Below are positions 49 through 11,252 of a stretch of DNA of 24,056 nt, piece by piece. Position 1 is the first letter of the stretch, and every line of letters starts with the position of its first letter. Location: positions 1 through 24,056 of IMG/VR virus record IMGVR_UViG_3300020183_000455; one strand, 5' to 3'. Origin of the DNA: a virus. The position numbers and the translations under genes were made by a program. Below the pieces are notes generated by a model. That model saw only the letters and a program-made list of their open reading frames with translations, had not been told where the DNA came from and ran no database searches.

Positions 49-92
49 ACACCCCCGCCAGCTGCAGCTGGATCACGGGGGTGTTTCTTTTT
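49..92 (+). terminator. rho-independent terminator, plus-strand
   Basis: A perfect 9-bp GC-rich stem, ACACCCCCG (49-57) with CGGGGGTGT (76-84), is followed at once by TTTCTTTTT (84-92). The 18-base loop contains a 14-base perfect palindrome (58-71, CCAGCTGCAGCTGG) that could form an inner stem. The T-tract exists only in the plus direction, so the site ends transcription coming from the left. Its last bases abut the minus-strand stop codon at 91-93, so the two converging units end back to back. Confidence 0.85.
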
Positions 93-1449
93 ACATATGT
101 ACCTGACGGCGACCGGGTAAAGCCTTTAGGTTATTTAAAAATGTTGAGACACTTTCAGTGGTGGAGTTTATTTTTAAATCTCTAAAGTCATACATTTTAG
201 TCTGTGGTCTAGAAACATCTGCAATTGCCGCGCGACTGTTTGTATCTACTGGTGGATTTTTTGGTGCTTTTTCTTGATTTTCTTTATTTGTAGCAAGAGC
301 ATCAGATGAGTTTGTATTTTCTTTTAATTTTACATTTGATGTTATTGACTTACTTAGAGAGTTATCAATATTTGGTTGTATTTCATTTATTCTTCCGATA
401 GCAGCTGCAGCAGTGTCTATCCTACCTATAGGATGATTCCAATATTTTTCTATATTAACTTGTATTGGTGCTACCATTTCTGGTCTACTTTCTCCAAGTA
501 AAGCAAAAGTAGGAGAAGATACTAATGCTCCAGTCGAAAATGCTGGAATTAAAGCTTTGGTGTTTTCTTTTTTGTTTTTAATTAGTTTTGCTTTTTGCTT
601 ACTGACTAATCTATTTTTGAGATTTTTAAAGTTTAATTTTTCTCTCTTAGCAAGTTCAACTGGTATGTATGTTTCCTTTGATAAAAACTCAAATGAAGTT
701 GGATTTAATTGTTCTTCGTTGAATTGATTTATAGTATCAGTATTAATTGTTTGTTGATTTTGTGATATAAGATTTAAGACTTCTGTAAACAAATTTTTGG
801 TTCTATTATCATATGAATTTAAATCTTCTGTTTTAATCTGTTGAAAAAAATCAAAATATTCTTTATCTCGATCATCAATAGAAGGAACTGGTAATCTAGA
901 TTGAAGATTTTCAAATGTGGGTTTTGTTTCTTCTTTTATATTTACGTTATTCACTTTATTTTCTATTTTTTCAATTGAATAGTTTCCAGCATTCGTTATA
1001 AAGTTGTAAGGAGTATTGATAATAAAACTCATTGGAGTTTTTATGATACTTGATTTATTTTTGAATTTAGTTTCTGTAAACTTTTCTCTAATGATATTCG
1101 TCTTATCTTTTTGAGAATTCATCAACACATAGAGGTTGGAAGATAAGATATTAGGAACTAGTAGTTCATTTTTTTTTAAATTCACATTAACATTTTTTTG
1201 ATTAGTTTTAATGTTGAATGGACTTAATGATAATGGTTCTCTATTATTTTGATTTATAGTTACATTCAAATTAATAGATTTGTCATCTTCTCTAGTCAAA
1301 GATGGGGATTCTAAAGATGGCACATTTGTAGTAGAAAATGATTGAAGTTCTAAAGACTGATTTTCAATTGGGGTATGTTCTGTAGAGAGATACGAGGAAA
1401 ATACACCAATCATCGTTTCTCTTAGTTTTTCTAAATTTTTCTCATTCAT
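91..1449 (-). CDS. candidate tail tape measure protein (452 aa)
   Basis: The likely role is the ruler inside the tail tube that sets tail length. Residues 301-329 hold a motif typical of tape-measure C-termini: P-A-F-S-T-G-A-L-V, then S-S-P-T-F-A-L-L-G-E, then R-P-E-M-V-A-P (compare the family pattern GG-x-PTLALVGE-x-GPE-x-V-x-P). The first 300 residues are Asn/Lys/Ser-rich and look extended or disordered. A basic stretch at about 270-297 precedes the motif, and a short Ala run (347-350) follows. The ATG overlaps the stop of the preceding frame by ATGA, and AGGGG sits about eight bases upstream. It lies immediately downstream of the chaperone frameshift cassette, as lambda gene H follows G/T. 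T4 gp29 is longer (about 590 aa), and I cannot align to it by eye. The alternative is an unrelated disordered structural protein. The coding part is AT-rich like its neighbours. Confidence 0.6.
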   Translation of the reverse strand: MNEKNLEKLRETMIGVFSSYLSTEHTPIENQSLELQSFSTTNVPSLESPSLTREDDKSINLNVTINQNNREPLSLSPFNIKTNQKNVNVNLKKNELLVPNILSSNLYVLMNSQKDKTNIIREKFTETKFKNKSSIIKTPMSFIINTPYNFITNAGNYSIEKIENKVNNVNIKEETKPTFENLQSRLPVPSIDDRDKEYFDFFQQIKTEDLNSYDNRTKNLFTEVLNLISQNQQTINTDTINQFNEEQLNPTSFEFLSKETYIPVELAKREKLNFKNLKNRLVSKQKAKLIKNKKENTKALIPAFSTGALVSSPTFALLGESRPEMVAPIQVNIEKYWNHPIGRIDTAAAAIGRINEIQPNIDNSLSKSITSNVKLKENTNSSDALATNKENQEKAPKNPPVDTNSRAAIADVSRPQTKMYDFRDLKINSTTESVSTFLNNLKALPGRRQVHM

Positions 1450-1679
1450 CCATGACCCCTATTCTTCATCATTCTAGTAAGCGCGTCATCATTTTGAGAA
1501 TTTTTCATTTTTAGATTTTCTTCTTCTATGTATCGCCTCAGCATATCTAGGTGAATATCTCTTTCCCAAGGTATCATTAGTTCTAGTTCTGAAATGTTTT
1601 GTTTTAGAATTACGCTTAACTTAAACTTAACATCAAAAACACTGTCTAATGATATATGACTGAGGCTTACTCGAAAAAA
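1446..1679 (-). CDS. -1 frameshift extension of the gp26-like chaperone (gp51/gpT-like)
   Basis: This frame is open from inside the end of the gp26-like gene and stops at TGA 1448-1446. After slippage at 1679-1673 it adds 75 residues (Arg onwards) to residues 1-235 of the gp26-like protein, making a fusion of about 310 aa. Its core, I-P-W-E-R-D-I-H-L-D-M-L followed by R-R-Y-I-E-E-E-N, resembles the W-E-R/helix segment of T-type tail chaperone extensions. No ATG, GTG or TTG occurs in the first 32 codons of the extension. The first ATG (1577) has no clear ribosome site and would give only 43 aa, cutting into the conserved block. Expression by frameshifting is therefore the simplest reading. Its stop overlaps the tape-measure start by four bases. 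T4 encodes gp26 and gp51 as separate genes; whether this segment is homologous to gp51 is uncertain. Confidence 0.7.
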   Translation of the reverse strand, partial: FFRVSLSHISLDSVFDVKFKLSVILKQNISELELMIPWERDIHLDMLRRYIEEENLKMKNSQNDDALTRMMKNRGHG

Positions 1680-2377
1680 TCCTTTATACCCTTTAGTAAA
1701 ATTTTTCTAACAGAACCATCAGAGGTTTTATATTCAATCTCTTCCTCAATTTTTGGCATAGTTGCAAAAAAGTCTATGATTTTATCAAATTGTTGTTTTG
1801 TCATTGAATCAACAAATGATTTTATTTCTTCTTTTGTAATTTTTGAAGCTTCTACTTTCTGTTCTCTAGTTTCTACATAATCGATACATTCTATTGCCAT
1901 TTCATAAAAATCCATAACCGATTGTGTATCAATCTTTGCTTCTAATAAAGTAGATAATGACGGATACTTCATTCCAACAACTATATCTTCTGATATTTTT
2001 AATTTTTTAGTATGTGTCTTGTCTGTTTTAACTATGAGTTTGTCTAAGTTAATAACCAATTTTACTTTTTCCTTTGTCTCTGGACAAATTAAAATTGGAC
2101 TAGCATACTCTCCCACGGATTTAGATCTTAATTTTAAAAATAGATATTCTAAATCAAAAAGTGGGAGAGTTAGTGCATTTTTAATATCAGGAAAACAAGA
2201 CTCCACTATATCCTTTATTGCTAACAAAACACTAGTTTCGTCTCCAACTTCCTGAGCCATTAAAAGTGTTTTTTCTTCTTTTACTAAAAATGGTCTGAAT
2301 GAAATTTTTTTACCAGTTGAAGGAATGGTTTCTGTATATTTTGGTAATGATTTTTCTAACACTTCCGATAATGACAT
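1667..2377 (-). CDS. gp26: gp26-like baseplate/tail assembly chaperone (PF12322-type)
   Basis: 236 aa, close to T4 gp26 (208 aa). The N-terminal segment F-R-P-F-L-V-K-E-E-K-T-L-L-M-A (residues 28-42) is the hallmark of the T4 base-plate protein family PF12322 in marine T4-like phages. The middle has L-P-L-F-D-L-E-Y-L-F-L-K-L-R-S (71-85), followed by a V-G-E-Y-A-S-P segment and Cys-P-E-T-K-E, another typical stretch of this family. The protein acts in the cytoplasm during hub and tube assembly and is not clearly part of the finished tail. The ATG has AAGGA about nine bases upstream. The last codons, GAT TTT TTC GAG TAA, contain a perfect -1 slippery heptamer, so this is probably the abundant short form and the 310-aa fusion the minor form, as in lambda gpG and gpGT. 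Confidence 0.85.
   Translation of the reverse strand: MSLSEVLEKSLPKYTETIPSTGKKISFRPFLVKEEKTLLMAQEVGDETSVLLAIKDIVESCFPDIKNALTLPLFDLEYLFLKLRSKSVGEYASPILICPETKEKVKLVINLDKLIVKTDKTHTKKLKISEDIVVGMKYPSLSTLLEAKIDTQSVMDFYEMAIECIDYVETREQKVEASKITKEEIKSFVDSMTKQQFDKIIDFFATMPKIEEEIEYKTSDGSVRKILLKGIKDFFE
1673..1679 (-). promoter_or_regulatory. programmed -1 ribosomal frameshift site T TTT TTC
   Basis: Read on the minus strand in the gp26-like frame, the codons are GAT TTT TTC GAG TAA. The heptamer T TTT TTC fits X-XXY-YYZ in exactly the right phase. Slipping back one base gives TTT TTT CGA GTA AGC and enters the open 75-codon extension. AAAGGG and AAGGA lie a few bases upstream and could act as Shine-Dalgarno-like stimulators, as in dnaX. 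I see only a weak 3-bp GAG/CTC pairing just downstream, so the downstream stimulator is unresolved. Confidence 0.75.
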
Positions 2378-3038: not shown

Positions 3039-3469
3039 TAGAACAACTCCTCTTCTGTTAAAATAGTAAACTTTATATTATTTTTATCGCAAAATTTAAT
3101 TGCAGATTGCCACTTTGCTTTATTTATTTCATATGTCAAAGTTTCATTGAGAACTGTTCTTTTATGCTTTTTACCAATAATAGGCTCCATTGTTTGCTTT
3201 TTTGGTTTTATCTCTACTATTTTTGTTTCTATGGATCCATCGCTTTTTCTAGTTTCTACTATAAAATCTGGTATATAGTTTTTAACTTTATTATCGATTG
3301 GGGAGACATATGGTATTTTGATACTTTCAAATGACCACCTTACAACATTTTTGTTAGTATCTAAATACTTACAAAATTTTCTTTCCCATAAAGAACGGCA
3401 ATTAATTGAATTAATATCACCTACATATTTGGTGGGATTCTCTGGGATGTATTTTGTCTTGTATGCCAT
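3038..3469 (-). CDS. gp4: head completion protein gp4-like, TnsA/PD-(D/E)XK nuclease fold
   Basis: 143 aa, against 150 in T4 gp4. It keeps the family's features in order: the start M-A-Y-K-x-K-Y-I-P (T4 has M-A-Y-S-G-K-W-V-P), S-L-W-E-R-K-F (26-32) with Glu29, P-D-F-I-V-E with Asp68, and V-E-I-K-P-K-K with Glu86 and Lys88. It ends with K-W-Q-S-A-I-K-F-C, then I-K-F-T-I-L-T-E-E, equal to T4's K-W-K-A-A and I-K-F-R-I-L-T-E-D. The Glu29, Asp68, Glu86-x-Lys88 set suits a TnsA-like nuclease. In T4 this protein prepares the filled head for tail joining. It is the first gene of the leftward block, starting 25 bases from the divergent gp48 gene. The sharing of a transcript with tail genes is unlike T4. 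Confidence 0.92.
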   Translation of the reverse strand: MAYKTKYIPENPTKYVGDINSINCRSLWERKFCKYLDTNKNVVRWSFESIKIPYVSPIDNKVKNYIPDFIVETRKSDGSIETKIVEIKPKKQTMEPIIGKKHKRTVLNETLTYEINKAKWQSAIKFCDKNNIKFTILTEEELF

Positions 3470-5345: not shown

Positions 5346-8300
5346 ATGGAACCAGAATTTATTGACAATCCAAATCAGTTCATTTCCGCCCTACATTCGA
5401 TAACTATTATAAAGGATGATGCAACATATGATGTTGTTTCTACTAAATCAGTAGGATCAGGAGAAAGTAAACTTTTATCTTTACAATTCAAAGAGAACTT
5501 AACAGACTTATTCATGAGTGGTTCTGTTGAGTTCAAGGATAAAGATGACTGGGTAGGTCAAATGAATATCGTTGGCGGAGAAACCATAAAGATACGGTTT
5601 GGTTATATCGATCTACCTCTGACTCAGACTCCAAAAGAATTAAGTTTTAAAATTGTTTCATCTAAAATCATAAACACCTTTGCTGATGTTAATGAAATGA
5701 GGACGGGTGTTGCTGACAAGAACATCATTTATCGAATGGAATTCATGTCTTCTGAGTTCTTCGATAAAGAGTTTGATTCTTCTTTCTTAAATTTAGATAA
5801 AGACTTTATTGGATATATTTCCATAGGAAACGAACAAGGTAGTGGAAATTCTACAAACAAAATACCAGGTCTTATAAATGAAGTTTCTGCTAAATTGGGT
5901 TTGAGTCCAATGGAGATAGAATCAACTAAAAACGGAATCTGGTTAAAATATAAAGATATCAGTTATCCATCAGGGGTTAACCAAGGTCAAATTGATTTGG
6001 CCGCTCTTGTTAAATATGTTGCAACTAATGCCGTTTCAAAGACAAATCCAAATGCAGTGAATTTCTTTTTTTGGCAGGATGTAGATGGGTGGCACTTTAA
6101 ATCAATAGAAAAAATACTTCAAGAGAATTCAGAAGATGAATCGCTGACTTTTGATCTAAACACAGATAATCTTCAGGATCCAGAACAAAAATTAACAAGA
6201 GTTTTATCGGTAAATGTTAAAAATCAAAATGACTTACTAAATCTAAAAAACTCTAGAGCATTTTACTCACACTACACTAAACAAAAACCAAAATATGAAG
6301 ATCCGTATTTTGATTTCATGAGTTCAATTGAAGGATATACTTACTCGGTGATTGATTATGATTATCACAGAGACTTTTCAAAAATTAAGCACGTTGAAAA
6401 GCATAAACTAATTCCAGATGATGAAGAAACAAGTTCATTCATAAATAAAGCACAAAAGACAACAAAACCTTCTAGACTTGTTACTGACAATGTTTGGGGT
6501 TATTATGAATTAAATACTTTAAATTTCCCATTTGAAAATGGTGTTCATTATTCTTCTGACAGAGGGTTTGGTGCTAAACCAGACAATCCAAAAGTTGTAT
6601 GGTGGGACTATGTGGATCGTAAAGAAGATTCAAGATGGTCTAATATCACTTGGCAACCACAGTTCGATATAACTGAACTAGAAATTAAAAAACTATACGA
6701 TATTCATACTAAAATTCGAACTCCTTTAGAGCAAAAGAGAAAAGAATTTGTCAAGATGAAGAATCTTAAGAGGCGGTGGGAAGTTTACCGTTGTGTTGTT
6801 TGTTGTTTCAATGGTTTTGATTATGGAATAAAGGATAAGCAACAGTTAGAGGCACTAAAGTCTATTGGTTCTGCATGTGGTATCTCTGGTGATCTAGGAT
6901 GTATAAATGCTTCTCAACTTGGAATAAGCGGAGACACATATAACTTCTTGTTCGGAGAAAATGGAATATTCAAAGGGAAAGAAGAATATAGAGTTGTTGC
7001 TGCGGGTTCGTTTACAGATCTCATAGATTATGATAAGAAGAATGAATGTATCCAGCACGGTCTATCTCTTGCTGTGGATTTTAATAATCTACAATTTCAA
7101 GTACCTCCTGGCGTCAATGGAGCAGAATATAAACCCAATGAATGGTTAAATTCCACAATAGGTCAATTTTACAATCTAAAAGATCAAATCCCAAATTATT
7201 TAACTTTTGTAATAAATCGAGGTCTTTCTCAATACGATAAAGAAATACTAAATCTTCAAAATAAGAAGACCCTGGCCCAACAATTCCTATCAAATGTTGA
7301 CCTTTACATATTAGAAGCAGATGCATGGATTGACTCCAGACTATTACCTTGCTGTGAACCATATCCTAGAAATTCTACAACACCAACAAATGCACAAGTT
7401 TTAACACAATCAGCAGACTCTTTATGTCCTCCGTGTGGGCCTGACTGTCCATCTGGCTGTTGCATCTGTGGCGTTTGTATTGAAGGGTGTGGTGGAGGCG
7501 GTGGTGGAGATAATCAAGGCGAAATTACTTCAAAGCAAATAACAATATCTGTTCCTTCAAAGTTTCTCGACAATCGTGGCGCCTTCGGATTTGGATTAGA
7601 GGATCCATATGATGATGGATACAATGGTCCTGGAAAATGTGATTGGTCGCCAAATGGATGTGCTGGGTGTAAACCGGCCGGCGCTGACCCGGTGACGATT
7701 GAGTGGGGAAGTGGTATAGTAGGAGATCCTACTATAAGAGGATGTAATTTTTGTTTTGAAACAGAAATTAAAGCTTTACCTAACGGTAATACTGCGGAAC
7801 AGTTAACTGGTAAAGGACACTGGTGTTGTAATAATGAATTCGATATATGTTGTCCTCAACAGACAATACAAGCAGGCCTTAAAAGATCGATGAATGACTG
7901 TAAAGCAGTTCTAAATGATGATTCTGCTGGTGGTTGGTATTTAAACGGCAAGCAATCGTCCACGCCGGCCGGCCAAGTCCCCGTTGATCAAGGAATATAT
8001 GGTCCTTTTGGTAGATGTCTTCATAGAAGAGCAGGATTACCCTATTGTACTAGTTTAATAGGAGGGCAACAGAATTTCAACTTTGCATGTGTTACTCCCG
8101 GCGGTCCGTACGATAATGGTTTCCCTTCAGGTATACCGAATGATGGAATTGATGACAGATGTTCTATTCCATACCAGTTTTCATGGAATTGGAGCACTTC
8201 AAATGAACCATTTGATACCCCAGAAGGTTGTCATGATTTTTATGGTGGATTCTTTATTCCATATTGTTCATTAGGTGGTAGTTTTACTGGAACATATGAT

Positions 8301-11252
8301 TTGTGTGAAGAAGGAACAGAACCCTGTTTGCGACAAGGATGCACTGATCCATTAACAGGTAGTGTTTTTAGCAGAGAACCATCAGCATGTGTTGGATTTA
8401 ATTACATAGATGGACTCGGAGAAGTTCCTTTGATCGTTCTACCAAAAGACGATGAAGGTAGACAAATGTGCATGAAGTGTAATAACTTCTTAGAAAATGA
8501 TGCTGATATTGAATTCGATCAATTGAATTGTTGTAACTGCACAGCGGCTGAAGCAAAAACTTTTGTGGATTTTAAAACCGATTCTGCATTGGGATGGTGT
8601 AGAGACTGTTCTAAAGATAAATTTATGAAAACTCTAGCACAGTATATTGGAACTGAAGAAAATTGGTATTTCAATTATCAATACACACCAGGCGGCGGCT
8701 CGGCATTTGCAGATATTGATGATTACATAGGACCAAATGGTGATCCTTCTGCGACTAGGAGATGTCTAGAAAATGGAGATTGTTATAATAAGTTGTGTTT
8801 CAATCCGTTGTATCTTGAAGTAGAGAAAAGAAGAGCACAACAAGAAATTAAAATAATAGATGCTGAAATTAAGTTACTTCAGTATGCAAAGAATTTATTT
8901 GCATCGGGCTTGGTTCTAAAATTCCAACAAGAATATTTAACATGGTGGAATAGAAAAGCATTCTTCTATTCTAAACTACCGGGGAAAAATGTATTTAGTG
9001 ACTTATCTACTGGATTGCCAGGAAGTATTCAAAACGGAAGATTACAACCAATTGTCACCAACAAATCTCTTTTCAATATAAAATCTATAAAGAGAAAATC
9101 TATAAGAGGAAGTAGATATGAACTTCTTGCTAGGAATAGAGGAATAACAGGAGCACAAGTAGGATCTTGGTTATATAACATAACATTCAATGGATCAGAT
9201 CATCCATATTATGGACAAAAATATAACACAACATCTGCATTCAAAACATCTAGAAAATTCTTTCAAAACTATAAAGTTACAAATGCAAATACTTTTAATG
9301 ATTTTCCATTTTTATCTAGATATGCTCCTGGCAATTGTTCATCGGGTATATTTACTGACATAACTTATATCAGTGCTCCAGCCGCGGCATTGAGCGGACA
9401 GGGCCCTGTTGCAAATGTCAATCCTACACTTGATTTTATTCCTGCTACTGCACAAACCGATTTAGAATCATTTGGTCCATCAATAAACACGCCATTTAGA
9501 GAAACCTTTGATTTGTATAATATACAGGGCAATTCAATTCCTCCAAATTTAAAGAGAGAACAACTTAGCTCATATGTAAGAATTGAATTTGAAACTCCAA
9601 TTGGGTTAGAAAGTATTCAAGATTTCCCCGATGGGTTTGTCCGAGACGCAGGAACAGAATACTTCCTACCATACATTGTATCTCTTACAGCAGGCCCAAA
9701 TGGTCGGCAAACTATAAGAAATAACGCGGTAGTAATAGGACAAGATCCATATGGATTTGATGTTGCTATTAAGAAATCAAAAGTAGAAGATGAAGAAACC
9801 ACTAAAACATACGGTTGGTGGGAAGAATATAATAAAAATCTAAATGATACATCTCTTACCAATAACGGAATGGAACTTTGGCCTGAAGTTGGATTTGAAA
9901 CCAAATTCCCATATTATGTCGCAGAACCAAAGGGTTGGTGGTGGGATAATGCATGGCATCACGGAGAAAATAGGGTAGATGTAAATAGAGAAGATGTAAA
10001 TAGTTACGATTGGTATAATGGTAGATCTGCTGATGTAGATCCAGAATATAAAGAAAGCGCACACGGAAGTGGATATTTACAATTTTCGCACAGAAAGATT
10101 AAACCACATAGATCTTGGTGGTCTTTCCATATTCCAAAGAATATTTTCATTCCACAAGAACTCTTCCATGTTCTGGCAACAAAATTTGGAGAAATAGGTG
10201 GAGAAAAATCTGGTATATTGGGTGATATTTTAGCGTACAAGTATAAGCAATATAACTGGTGGTATCCTGATGAGTTAGATCGTTGGTTGCAACTAACACA
10301 GGCTGGAAAAAATGCTATAGCCAGCGGTCTTAGTATATTAAACACCTCACAACTAAATGCCAATGATATTATAGATGTTCATAGTCCTGCAATAGCCGGA
10401 TGGTTTACTAGTACAACTATGAATTGGGCTCAAGGAAACAGTATACTCTATCGTCCAACACTAGTAACTCAGGATGTATGGAAATACGATTTAACAGGAG
10501 AATCAGACTATGGAATGGTTACTCCTCCAACAATGAATCCAAATTACGATTTGTTTGACAATAATTTTGCTGCACAGTTCTTGGTATTCTCAAGATCTAG
10601 TAAAATTTGTGAAGGATTTGTTTGTGCTAATCCTTCAGGTCCTATTGGAGATGCGAACTGTCCTCCAAATAATCCATATTGCAATTGTCCGTGTCAGGAT
10701 AAAAAACCAACACAACCAGAACCAAGTTACTTGGATCTATTCTGCAAATGGCAAGAACTAAAAGAATGCGATCTAATAAAGAGTGTTCTTGGAGAAGAAT
10801 ATTTGGGTTGTGTATGGAGTGATCCTAATGCGCCATGTAGTTGTATCTGTCCATGTCAAAACAGTAAGTTCAAAGAATATCTTGAATATAATAGAACTTA
10901 TGCCACATTCTGGGATACTCCAGAAAGAACTCCATTGAATAGACTAGCACAGATAATTCAAATGTCAGCACAAGAAATGGAAATTATCGTTCCATATACA
11001 TCCCTACCAAAAGTAGGAAAGGTTATCAATATTAAACATTATGGTGCAATCAGTCCAAGTTTACCAAAGCAAGAGAAAAATACACATGGTAAATGGTTAA
11101 TTACAGGGATACAATATCGTTTCTATAAAGACAACAACGCAGTAATGGTTCTAACTCTTAATAGAGATACCTTGGAAAGAGATCCCAAGTTTACCGTTCC
11201 GAACCTAGAGCAAATTTACGCGGGAATGGATGAAATGTTTGAAAATGGCTAA
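5346..11252 (+). CDS. gp27: gp27-like baseplate hub protein with a giant cysteine-rich insertion (1968 aa)
   Basis: The first ~260 residues look like the start of a gp27-type hub: a strand-rich domain (18-100), F-K-I-V-S-S-K-I and Y-R-M-E-F-M-S-S-E-F-F, then F-F-F-W-Q-D-V-D-G-W-H-F-K-S-I. The last ~120 residues return to a hub pattern with V-G-K-V-I-N-I-K-H, G-K-W-L-I-T-G-I-Q-Y-R-F and M-V-L-T-L-N-R-D. T4 gp27 is 391 aa. The extra ~1500 residues hold about 60 Cys, all between residues 483 and 1837 and none before. They include an eight-Cys cluster (694-715) followed by Gly6, many CC/CxC pairs, Trp-rich stretches and helices suited to coiled coils near 440-480 and 1160-1200. No gp5-type lysozyme motif is visible. 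The stop codon of gp53 is three bases upstream and no clear ribosome site exists, suggesting coupling. The gp27 assignment is moderate; the insertion has no recognised function. Confidence 0.6.
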   Translation: MEPEFIDNPNQFISALHSITIIKDDATYDVVSTKSVGSGESKLLSLQFKENLTDLFMSGSVEFKDKDDWVGQMNIVGGETIKIRFGYIDLPLTQTPKELSFKIVSSKIINTFADVNEMRTGVADKNIIYRMEFMSSEFFDKEFDSSFLNLDKDFIGYISIGNEQGSGNSTNKIPGLINEVSAKLGLSPMEIESTKNGIWLKYKDISYPSGVNQGQIDLAALVKYVATNAVSKTNPNAVNFFFWQDVDGWHFKSIEKILQENSEDESLTFDLNTDNLQDPEQKLTRVLSVNVKNQNDLLNLKNSRAFYSHYTKQKPKYEDPYFDFMSSIEGYTYSVIDYDYHRDFSKIKHVEKHKLIPDDEETSSFINKAQKTTKPSRLVTDNVWGYYELNTLNFPFENGVHYSSDRGFGAKPDNPKVVWWDYVDRKEDSRWSNITWQPQFDITELEIKKLYDIHTKIRTPLEQKRKEFVKMKNLKRRWEVYRCVVCCFNGFDYGIKDKQQLEALKSIGSACGISGDLGCINASQLGISGDTYNFLFGENGIFKGKEEYRVVAAGSFTDLIDYDKKNECIQHGLSLAVDFNNLQFQVPPGVNGAEYKPNEWLNSTIGQFYNLKDQIPNYLTFVINRGLSQYDKEILNLQNKKTLAQQFLSNVDLYILEADAWIDSRLLPCCEPYPRNSTTPTNAQVLTQSADSLCPPCGPDCPSGCCICGVCIEGCGGGGGGDNQGEITSKQITISVPSKFLDNRGAFGFGLEDPYDDGYNGPGKCDWSPNGCAGCKPAGADPVTIEWGSGIVGDPTIRGCNFCFETEIKALPNGNTAEQLTGKGHWCCNNEFDICCPQQTIQAGLKRSMNDCKAVLNDDSAGGWYLNGKQSSTPAGQVPVDQGIYGPFGRCLHRRAGLPYCTSLIGGQQNFNFACVTPGGPYDNGFPSGIPNDGIDDRCSIPYQFSWNWSTSNEPFDTPEGCHDFYGGFFIPYCSLGGSFTGTYDLCEEGTEPCLRQGCTDPLTGSVFSREPSACVGFNYIDGLGEVPLIVLPKDDEGRQMCMKCNNFLENDADIEFDQLNCCNCTAAEAKTFVDFKTDSALGWCRDCSKDKFMKTLAQYIGTEENWYFNYQYTPGGGSAFADIDDYIGPNGDPSATRRCLENGDCYNKLCFNPLYLEVEKRRAQQEIKIIDAEIKLLQYAKNLFASGLVLKFQQEYLTWWNRKAFFYSKLPGKNVFSDLSTGLPGSIQNGRLQPIVTNKSLFNIKSIKRKSIRGSRYELLARNRGITGAQVGSWLYNITFNGSDHPYYGQKYNTTSAFKTSRKFFQNYKVTNANTFNDFPFLSRYAPGNCSSGIFTDITYISAPAAALSGQGPVANVNPTLDFIPATAQTDLESFGPSINTPFRETFDLYNIQGNSIPPNLKREQLSSYVRIEFETPIGLESIQDFPDGFVRDAGTEYFLPYIVSLTAGPNGRQTIRNNAVVIGQDPYGFDVAIKKSKVEDEETTKTYGWWEEYNKNLNDTSLTNNGMELWPEVGFETKFPYYVAEPKGWWWDNAWHHGENRVDVNREDVNSYDWYNGRSADVDPEYKESAHGSGYLQFSHRKIKPHRSWWSFHIPKNIFIPQELFHVLATKFGEIGGEKSGILGDILAYKYKQYNWWYPDELDRWLQLTQAGKNAIASGLSILNTSQLNANDIIDVHSPAIAGWFTSTTMNWAQGNSILYRPTLVTQDVWKYDLTGESDYGMVTPPTMNPNYDLFDNNFAAQFLVFSRSSKICEGFVCANPSGPIGDANCPPNNPYCNCPCQDKKPTQPEPSYLDLFCKWQELKECDLIKSVLGEEYLGCVWSDPNAPCSCICPCQNSKFKEYLEYNRTYATFWDTPERTPLNRLAQIIQMSAQEMEIIVPYTSLPKVGKVINIKHYGAISPSLPKQEKNTHGKWLITGIQYRFYKDNNAVMVLTLNRDTLERDPKFTVPNLEQIYAGMDEMFENG

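Follow-up and report, generated by a model that had tools for sequence, protein, structure and literature searches.

A described counterpart of the locus studied here is the G/GT pair of phage lambda, in which a short form is encoded by a gene with an in-phase -1 heptamer at its 3' end, the extension beyond the heptamer lacks a start codon, and the pair lies adjacent to the tape measure gene. Lambda G/GT and a wider family of frameshifted tail genes were reportedly set out by Xu, Hendrix and Duda. In Escherichia coli dnaX, an internal Shine-Dalgarno (SD) sequence precedes the heptamer A AAA AAG, and a strong hairpin lies downstream. The T4-like tail assembly chaperones gp26/gp51 are said to be the subject of Vladimirov, Gautam and Davidson (2022, Virology 566:9-15). 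Marine T4-like phages are one of the most abundant marine phage groups, and public records annotate their gp26/gp51 pair as two genes ('baseplate hub subunit' and 'baseplate hub assembly catalyst') or omit the second.

Proteins of the gp26/gp51 type have already been identified as T4-like tail assembly chaperones (Vladimirov et al. 2022, as cited in the PRFect paper, PMC10885494), and the PRFect paper states after these authors that T4 encodes the short and long forms as two paralogues. PMC12846349 refers to Vladimirov et al. (2022) for -1 slippery sequences of the poly-T kind in the TAC-N genes of T4-like phages. The central idea has therefore been published, and our finding is largely anticipated; a direct description of the marine case was not found in the literature searched, in which Vladimirov et al. 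(2022) is known via citing papers. The locus described below shares with those chaperones a short form of the gp26 family and a gp51-type extension in the long form. It differs in its arrangement: T4 and its close relatives encode the long form as a separate, fused, duplicated gene, whereas our locus has one gene and a -1 frame. It lies in a stretch of viral DNA of 24,056 nucleotides (IMG/VR record IMGVR_UViG_3300020183_000455), which in its whole length is called the window.

Results

Judged by its sequence, the locus belongs to a marine T4-like phage and encodes its tail assembly chaperone (TAC) (Table 1). On the minus strand, the gp26-like ORF ends GAT TTT TTC GAG TAA. The -1 frame is open from 1706 to the TGA at 1448-1446; the first codon after the slip is CGA (1673-1671), from which 75 codons run to the stop (RVSLSH...NRGHG). 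A preliminary description of the DNA had given the end of the gp26-like gene, the heptamer, its phase, the extent of the -1 frame and the number of codons, all of which we confirmed on the minus strand. Its reading of the site as a programmed -1 frameshift is strongly supported by the retention of the heptamer in relatives and by selection on the extension as protein, and the site very probably acts as a programmed -1 frameshift of a T4-like tail assembly chaperone.

Table 1. Features of the chaperone locus in the window
Feature	Position	Strand	Description	Basis
Next gene	91..1449	-	452 aa; ATGA overlaps the extension stop; tape-measure candidate	position only
-1-frame extension	1446..1673	-	75 codons + TGA; gp51 homologue (T / C-terminal part of TAC-NC)	phrog_634
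Predicted frameshift product gp26-gp51	1446..2377	-	310 aa (235 + 75); GT / TAC-NC equivalent	inferred
gp26-like gene	1667..2377	-	236 aa; short tail assembly chaperone (G / TAC-N equivalent)	PF12322, phrog_150, AF2 model
Slippery heptamer T TTT TTC	1673..1679	-	in phase with gp26 (X XXY YYZ)	sequence
Shine-Dalgarno-like AAAGGG	1689..1694	-	9 nt before the heptamer; candidate stimulator	family-wide anti-SD energy dip

The gp26-like protein belongs, by its profile matches, to the PF12322/phrog_150 family of T4 gp26. Residues 12-236 matched PF12322 (T4_baseplate / gp26) with an E-value of 4.9e-55 and 187 bits (cutoff 24.5), and phrog_150 was matched with an E-value of 1.7e-55. A search by sequence for relatives with solved structures found none. 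The AlphaFold2 model, for which 44 sequences served as input, had a pLDDT of 93.8, and its top PDB match in two programs was the HK97 gp13 tail assembly chaperone (2OB9). This match covers the N-terminal residues 1-88 of the model at 10% identity (VIA Z 7.7, rmsd 4.1, 87 residues; this Z is below 8 and inside the range of chance best matches of which the tool warns), with an E-value of only 0.39 and a probability of 0.60 in Foldseek, and the window protein has ~150 more residues that lack a clear fold match. The runners-up were the uncharacterised 3FGX (Z 7.5), 5IR0 (Z 5.1) and a fourth-ranked structure (Z 3.0). The predicted fold likeness to the HK97 protein is supportive of a chaperone, short of proof.

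The extension matched phrog_634, 'baseplate hub assembly catalyst', with an E-value of 1.2e-15 over profile positions 55-118, and the match begins at the slip. Its P-W-E-R-D-I block is the conserved block of phrog_634 (gp51). As described previously, ATG, GTG and TTG are absent from the first 32 codons of the extension; the first of them is the ATG of M-I-P-W-E-R-D-I, at codon 33. Relatives likewise mostly lack a good start and ribosome site for an independent extension gene, the circumstance that the preliminary description had proposed to check: past the slip, their first start codon falls anywhere from the third to the 35th codon, an SD-like sequence before it is rare, and the annotated gp51 starts disagree between public records. 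Nor is an upstream start kept, since 5' of the slip the open stretch of the -1 frame measures just 0-46 codons across sequences. Conserved residues (FFR[IVL]..L.H..L..Y) lie upstream of the first start in a third of the sequences. In the 33 sequences without ATG, GTG or TTG in the first 20 extension codons, pN/pS over codons 5-19 was 0.41 in the -1 frame versus 1.06 and 1.48 in the other two frames, so the conserved residues precede any usual start.

The heptamer is nearly invariant in relatives, which were gathered from IMG/VR and from named phages by their gp26 protein and not by the heptamer. An in-phase TTTTTTN is present at the 3' end of gp26 in 115 of 116 sequences, although these sequences are related and should not be counted as independent events (of 93 closer ones, 59 representatives remain below 85% identity). 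The -1 phase is also kept, with 54-81 codons past the slip in complete contigs, and the conservation that the preliminary description had proposed to test was thus found. Among the 100 unique sequences, the two slip codons are TTT TTC in 84, TTT TTT in 12, TTT TTA in three and TTT TTG in one. A T always precedes them: the preceding codon has T as its third base in 100/100, whichever of D, S, N, A, G, R or T it encodes. Elsewhere in gp26-like genes, only three of 107 Phe-Phe pairs have the T TTT TTY form. A chance origin of the heptamer in AT-rich genes was rejected, there being 17 such T6 runs in 25,499 codons of gene bodies. T4 gp26, which has no extension, encodes its Phe-Phe pair as TTC TTT and has no heptamer, so the protein does not need the T6 run; by these comparisons of codons, the run is not forced by the protein sequence.

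In four Ackermannviridae-type relatives (L130, L131, L132 and L096) the arrangement differs: the gp51 extension is retained in the -1 frame, but CTT TTT, CTT TTC, GTT TTT or ATT TTC stands in place of T TTT TTY. Three of the four, VAP7, K476 and D506, have a TAATG overlap, and the other, Se_EM3, has no heptamer, no early start and no TAATG. Two further exceptions, XG4 and RHph_I9, have T TTT TTA and T TTT TTG, respectively. Re-initiation may have replaced or joined slippage in these heptamer-less relatives. Searches of the viral collection with the KVP40, OLIVR5 and K476 proteins as queries recovered two, one and no loci, respectively.

On average over the family, an SD-like site lies upstream of the heptamer. 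Pairing with the anti-SD reaches its optimum directly upstream of the heptamer, with a mean of -6.3 kcal/mol versus -2.3 to +1.5 elsewhere. The observed energy was -6.54 versus -5.16 (sd 0.13) in synonymous shuffles, and the Glu of a conserved Glu-Gly pair is encoded by GAG in 47 of 60 cases versus a background of 27%, both differences being inflated by relatedness. The window's own site is moderate, as 12% of the blocks of its gene pair with the anti-SD as well or better; a second SD-like sequence, AAAGGA, lies at 1685-1680 on the minus strand. Codon choice thus indicates that an SD-like site ~10 nt before the heptamer is conserved in the family beyond the need of the protein and is weak in the window.

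Downstream RNA structure is confined to part of the family. The preliminary description had suggested a downstream pseudoknot, which is unsupported in the window by nearest-neighbour folding (a model without pseudoknots): the 80 nt downstream of the slip had no significant structure, with z from -0.08 to -0.77. Over the family, folding relative to shuffles had a mean z of -1.4 directly after the slip and of about -0.3 from 30 nt on. A universal downstream stem was rejected, since an RNAalifold consensus was absent among the 59 representatives, and strong downstream hairpins are restricted to some clades. One clade (L034, L047, L058, L064, L074 and L075) has an 11-bp hairpin 5 nt past the heptamer with one compensatory pair (T-A/G-C/A-T), the 3' side of which alters an amino acid (Glu, Ala or Val).

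T4 arrives at the same pair of proteins by another route. In T4 gp51 (249 aa), a PF12322 domain (1-201) and a match to phrog_634 (147-246) stand in a single frame, and their junction falls at the slip position of other phages. By these domain matches, T4 gp51 is a paralogue of gp26 that carries the same extension, joined to it in one frame, and T4 would therefore make its short and long forms from duplicated genes. The earlier statement that T4 encodes gp26 and gp51 as separate genes holds as to there being two genes, but gp51 itself is a gp26-like domain fused to the extension. Both alternatives of the preliminary description, a frameshifting lineage and fused genes, are borne out, in different lineages. 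PF12322 occurs twice in the genomes of T4, RB43, phage 31 and a Krischvirus. Each of the 16 non-T4 genomes in the first set has one copy, and 15 of the 16 carry the heptamer. Straboviridae include both kinds, with the slip site in KVP40, Aeh1 and LPCS28, which belong to those 15, and the duplication in the four genomes with two copies. A second gp26-domain ORF fused to the extension was not recognised in the 24-kb window, which is a genome fragment. In a tree of the gp26 domain, the T4-group copies fall outside the single-copy set (96/90), with long branches and a root placed for drawing only. It is plausible that the frameshift is ancestral to the T4-type duplication.

Discussion

The proposed mechanism involves one gene with two products. 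Most ribosomes on gp26 would terminate at TAA and release the 236-aa chaperone. We infer the slip and its rate: some ribosomes would move back one base on T TTT TTC and read 75 more codons, giving the 310-aa gp26-gp51 fusion. The slip is probably aided by the SD-like sequence ~10 nt upstream, which, as in dnaX, may pair with the 30S subunit of the moving ribosome. If the two products act like lambda G/GT, coating of the tape measure protein would fall to the short form, and the minority long form would recruit tail tube subunits via its C-terminal part. The window has in common with lambda the short form, the in-phase -1 heptamer at the 3' end, the start-less extension and the place adjacent to the tape measure candidate; lambda, however, slips on G GGA AAG, whereas the window would slip on T TTT TTC with an SD-like site upstream. 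The resemblance to dnaX is the internal SD ~10 nt upstream of a homopolymeric -1 heptamer. The strong downstream hairpin of dnaX has no significant counterpart in the window, and some relatives have a clade-specific one.

In the main alternative, the extension is a small gene of its own (gp51, its label in most records), on which ribosomes would re-initiate once past the gp26 stop, without any frameshift. Public records do annotate it as a separate gene, with varied starts, and KVP40, Cr30, YB07 and RHph_I9 have a -1-frame ATG that overlaps the gp26 stop (TAATG or TGATG); the TAATG of some heptamer-less Ackermannviridae-type relatives points the same way. In the window, however, the first start is 32 codons in, beyond the N-terminal half of the conserved region, and an SD is nearly always absent before the extension start across relatives. 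A separate gene also leaves the near-invariant T6 run in the gp26 frame unexplained. The strongest evidence against re-initiation is, by the substitution patterns, the selection on start-less extension codons, as the pN/pS of 0.41 was obtained where no start was available. We therefore consider re-initiation improbable. The variant in which a separate gp51 has its own ribosome site was set aside as disfavoured by the erratic starts, the rarity of SD sequences and the selection on start-less codons.

The T run could also be kept for the sake of the protein (Asp/Ser-Phe-Phe at the gp26 C-terminus), with the -1 frame an untranslated relic of a broken fusion. The gp26 C-terminus of T4 indeed has the two Phe residues (GLKEFFELL) without a frameshift, but it encodes them without the heptamer. 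Moreover, a relic would gather stops, whereas in complete contigs the -1 frame never ends sooner than 54 codons after the slip. Selection also acts on the extension in the -1 frame, and an untranslated relic is very improbable. A further alternative is a long form produced from a second, fused gene elsewhere in the genome, as in T4, with the site in the window being vestigial. The window covers only 24 kb of its genome, and T4-type genomes do use a second gene. Against this, PF12322 occurs only once in each of the 16 non-T4 relatives in the first set, and T4 gp26, which has such a partner, is without the heptamer. We regard a vestigial site as highly unlikely.

According to the sequence evidence, a single gene with a programmed slip encodes the marine chaperone pair, and T4 gp51 is the fused equivalent. 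One gene with a slip explains why annotated gp51 starts disagree between genomes. It also supports regarding the 'catalyst' of T4 as the long form of the chaperone, a reassignment that earlier literature has proposed. Within one family, Straboviridae, two ways of setting the ratio of short to long form can be compared, slippage and gene duplication. With about an even chance, an internal SD under synonymous selection, ~10 nt ahead of a T6 heptamer, is the general stimulator of frameshifting in marine T4-like gp26/gp51, replacing a universal RNA structure, and the T4 group escaped by duplication and fusion, which would have freed the short:long ratio from slippage.

The tape-measure assignment of the next gene is less firm. 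The preliminary description had the extension stop overlapping a tape-measure candidate; the ATGA overlap stands, and the tape-measure identity is positional only. The 452-aa ORF had only a marginal match to phrog_12798 (E 0.04), and no recognisable relative of it was found among the fetched loci. Annotated tape measures lie shortly downstream of gp51, past one small ORF, in HTVC008M and Cr30. The candidate is Asn-rich and Cys-free, and of the long ORFs found behind the extension it has the smallest length.

Several further observations concern annotation. In many cyanophage records the gp51 extension is unannotated or has inconsistent starts; the ACG-2014e record (L136, 2013-2195) has no annotated gene for it, and one cyanophage extension has matches encoded in ~558 phage records. 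Elsewhere in the window, a head-closure protein (gp4-like, phrog_218) at 3041-3469 on the minus strand scores against PF08722, a TnsA-like endonuclease domain, with an E-value of 8.4e-19. On the plus strand, a 1968-aa ORF at 5346-11252 adjoins the gp53-like gene; it contains many Cys-rich stretches and is odd for a T4-like baseplate protein.
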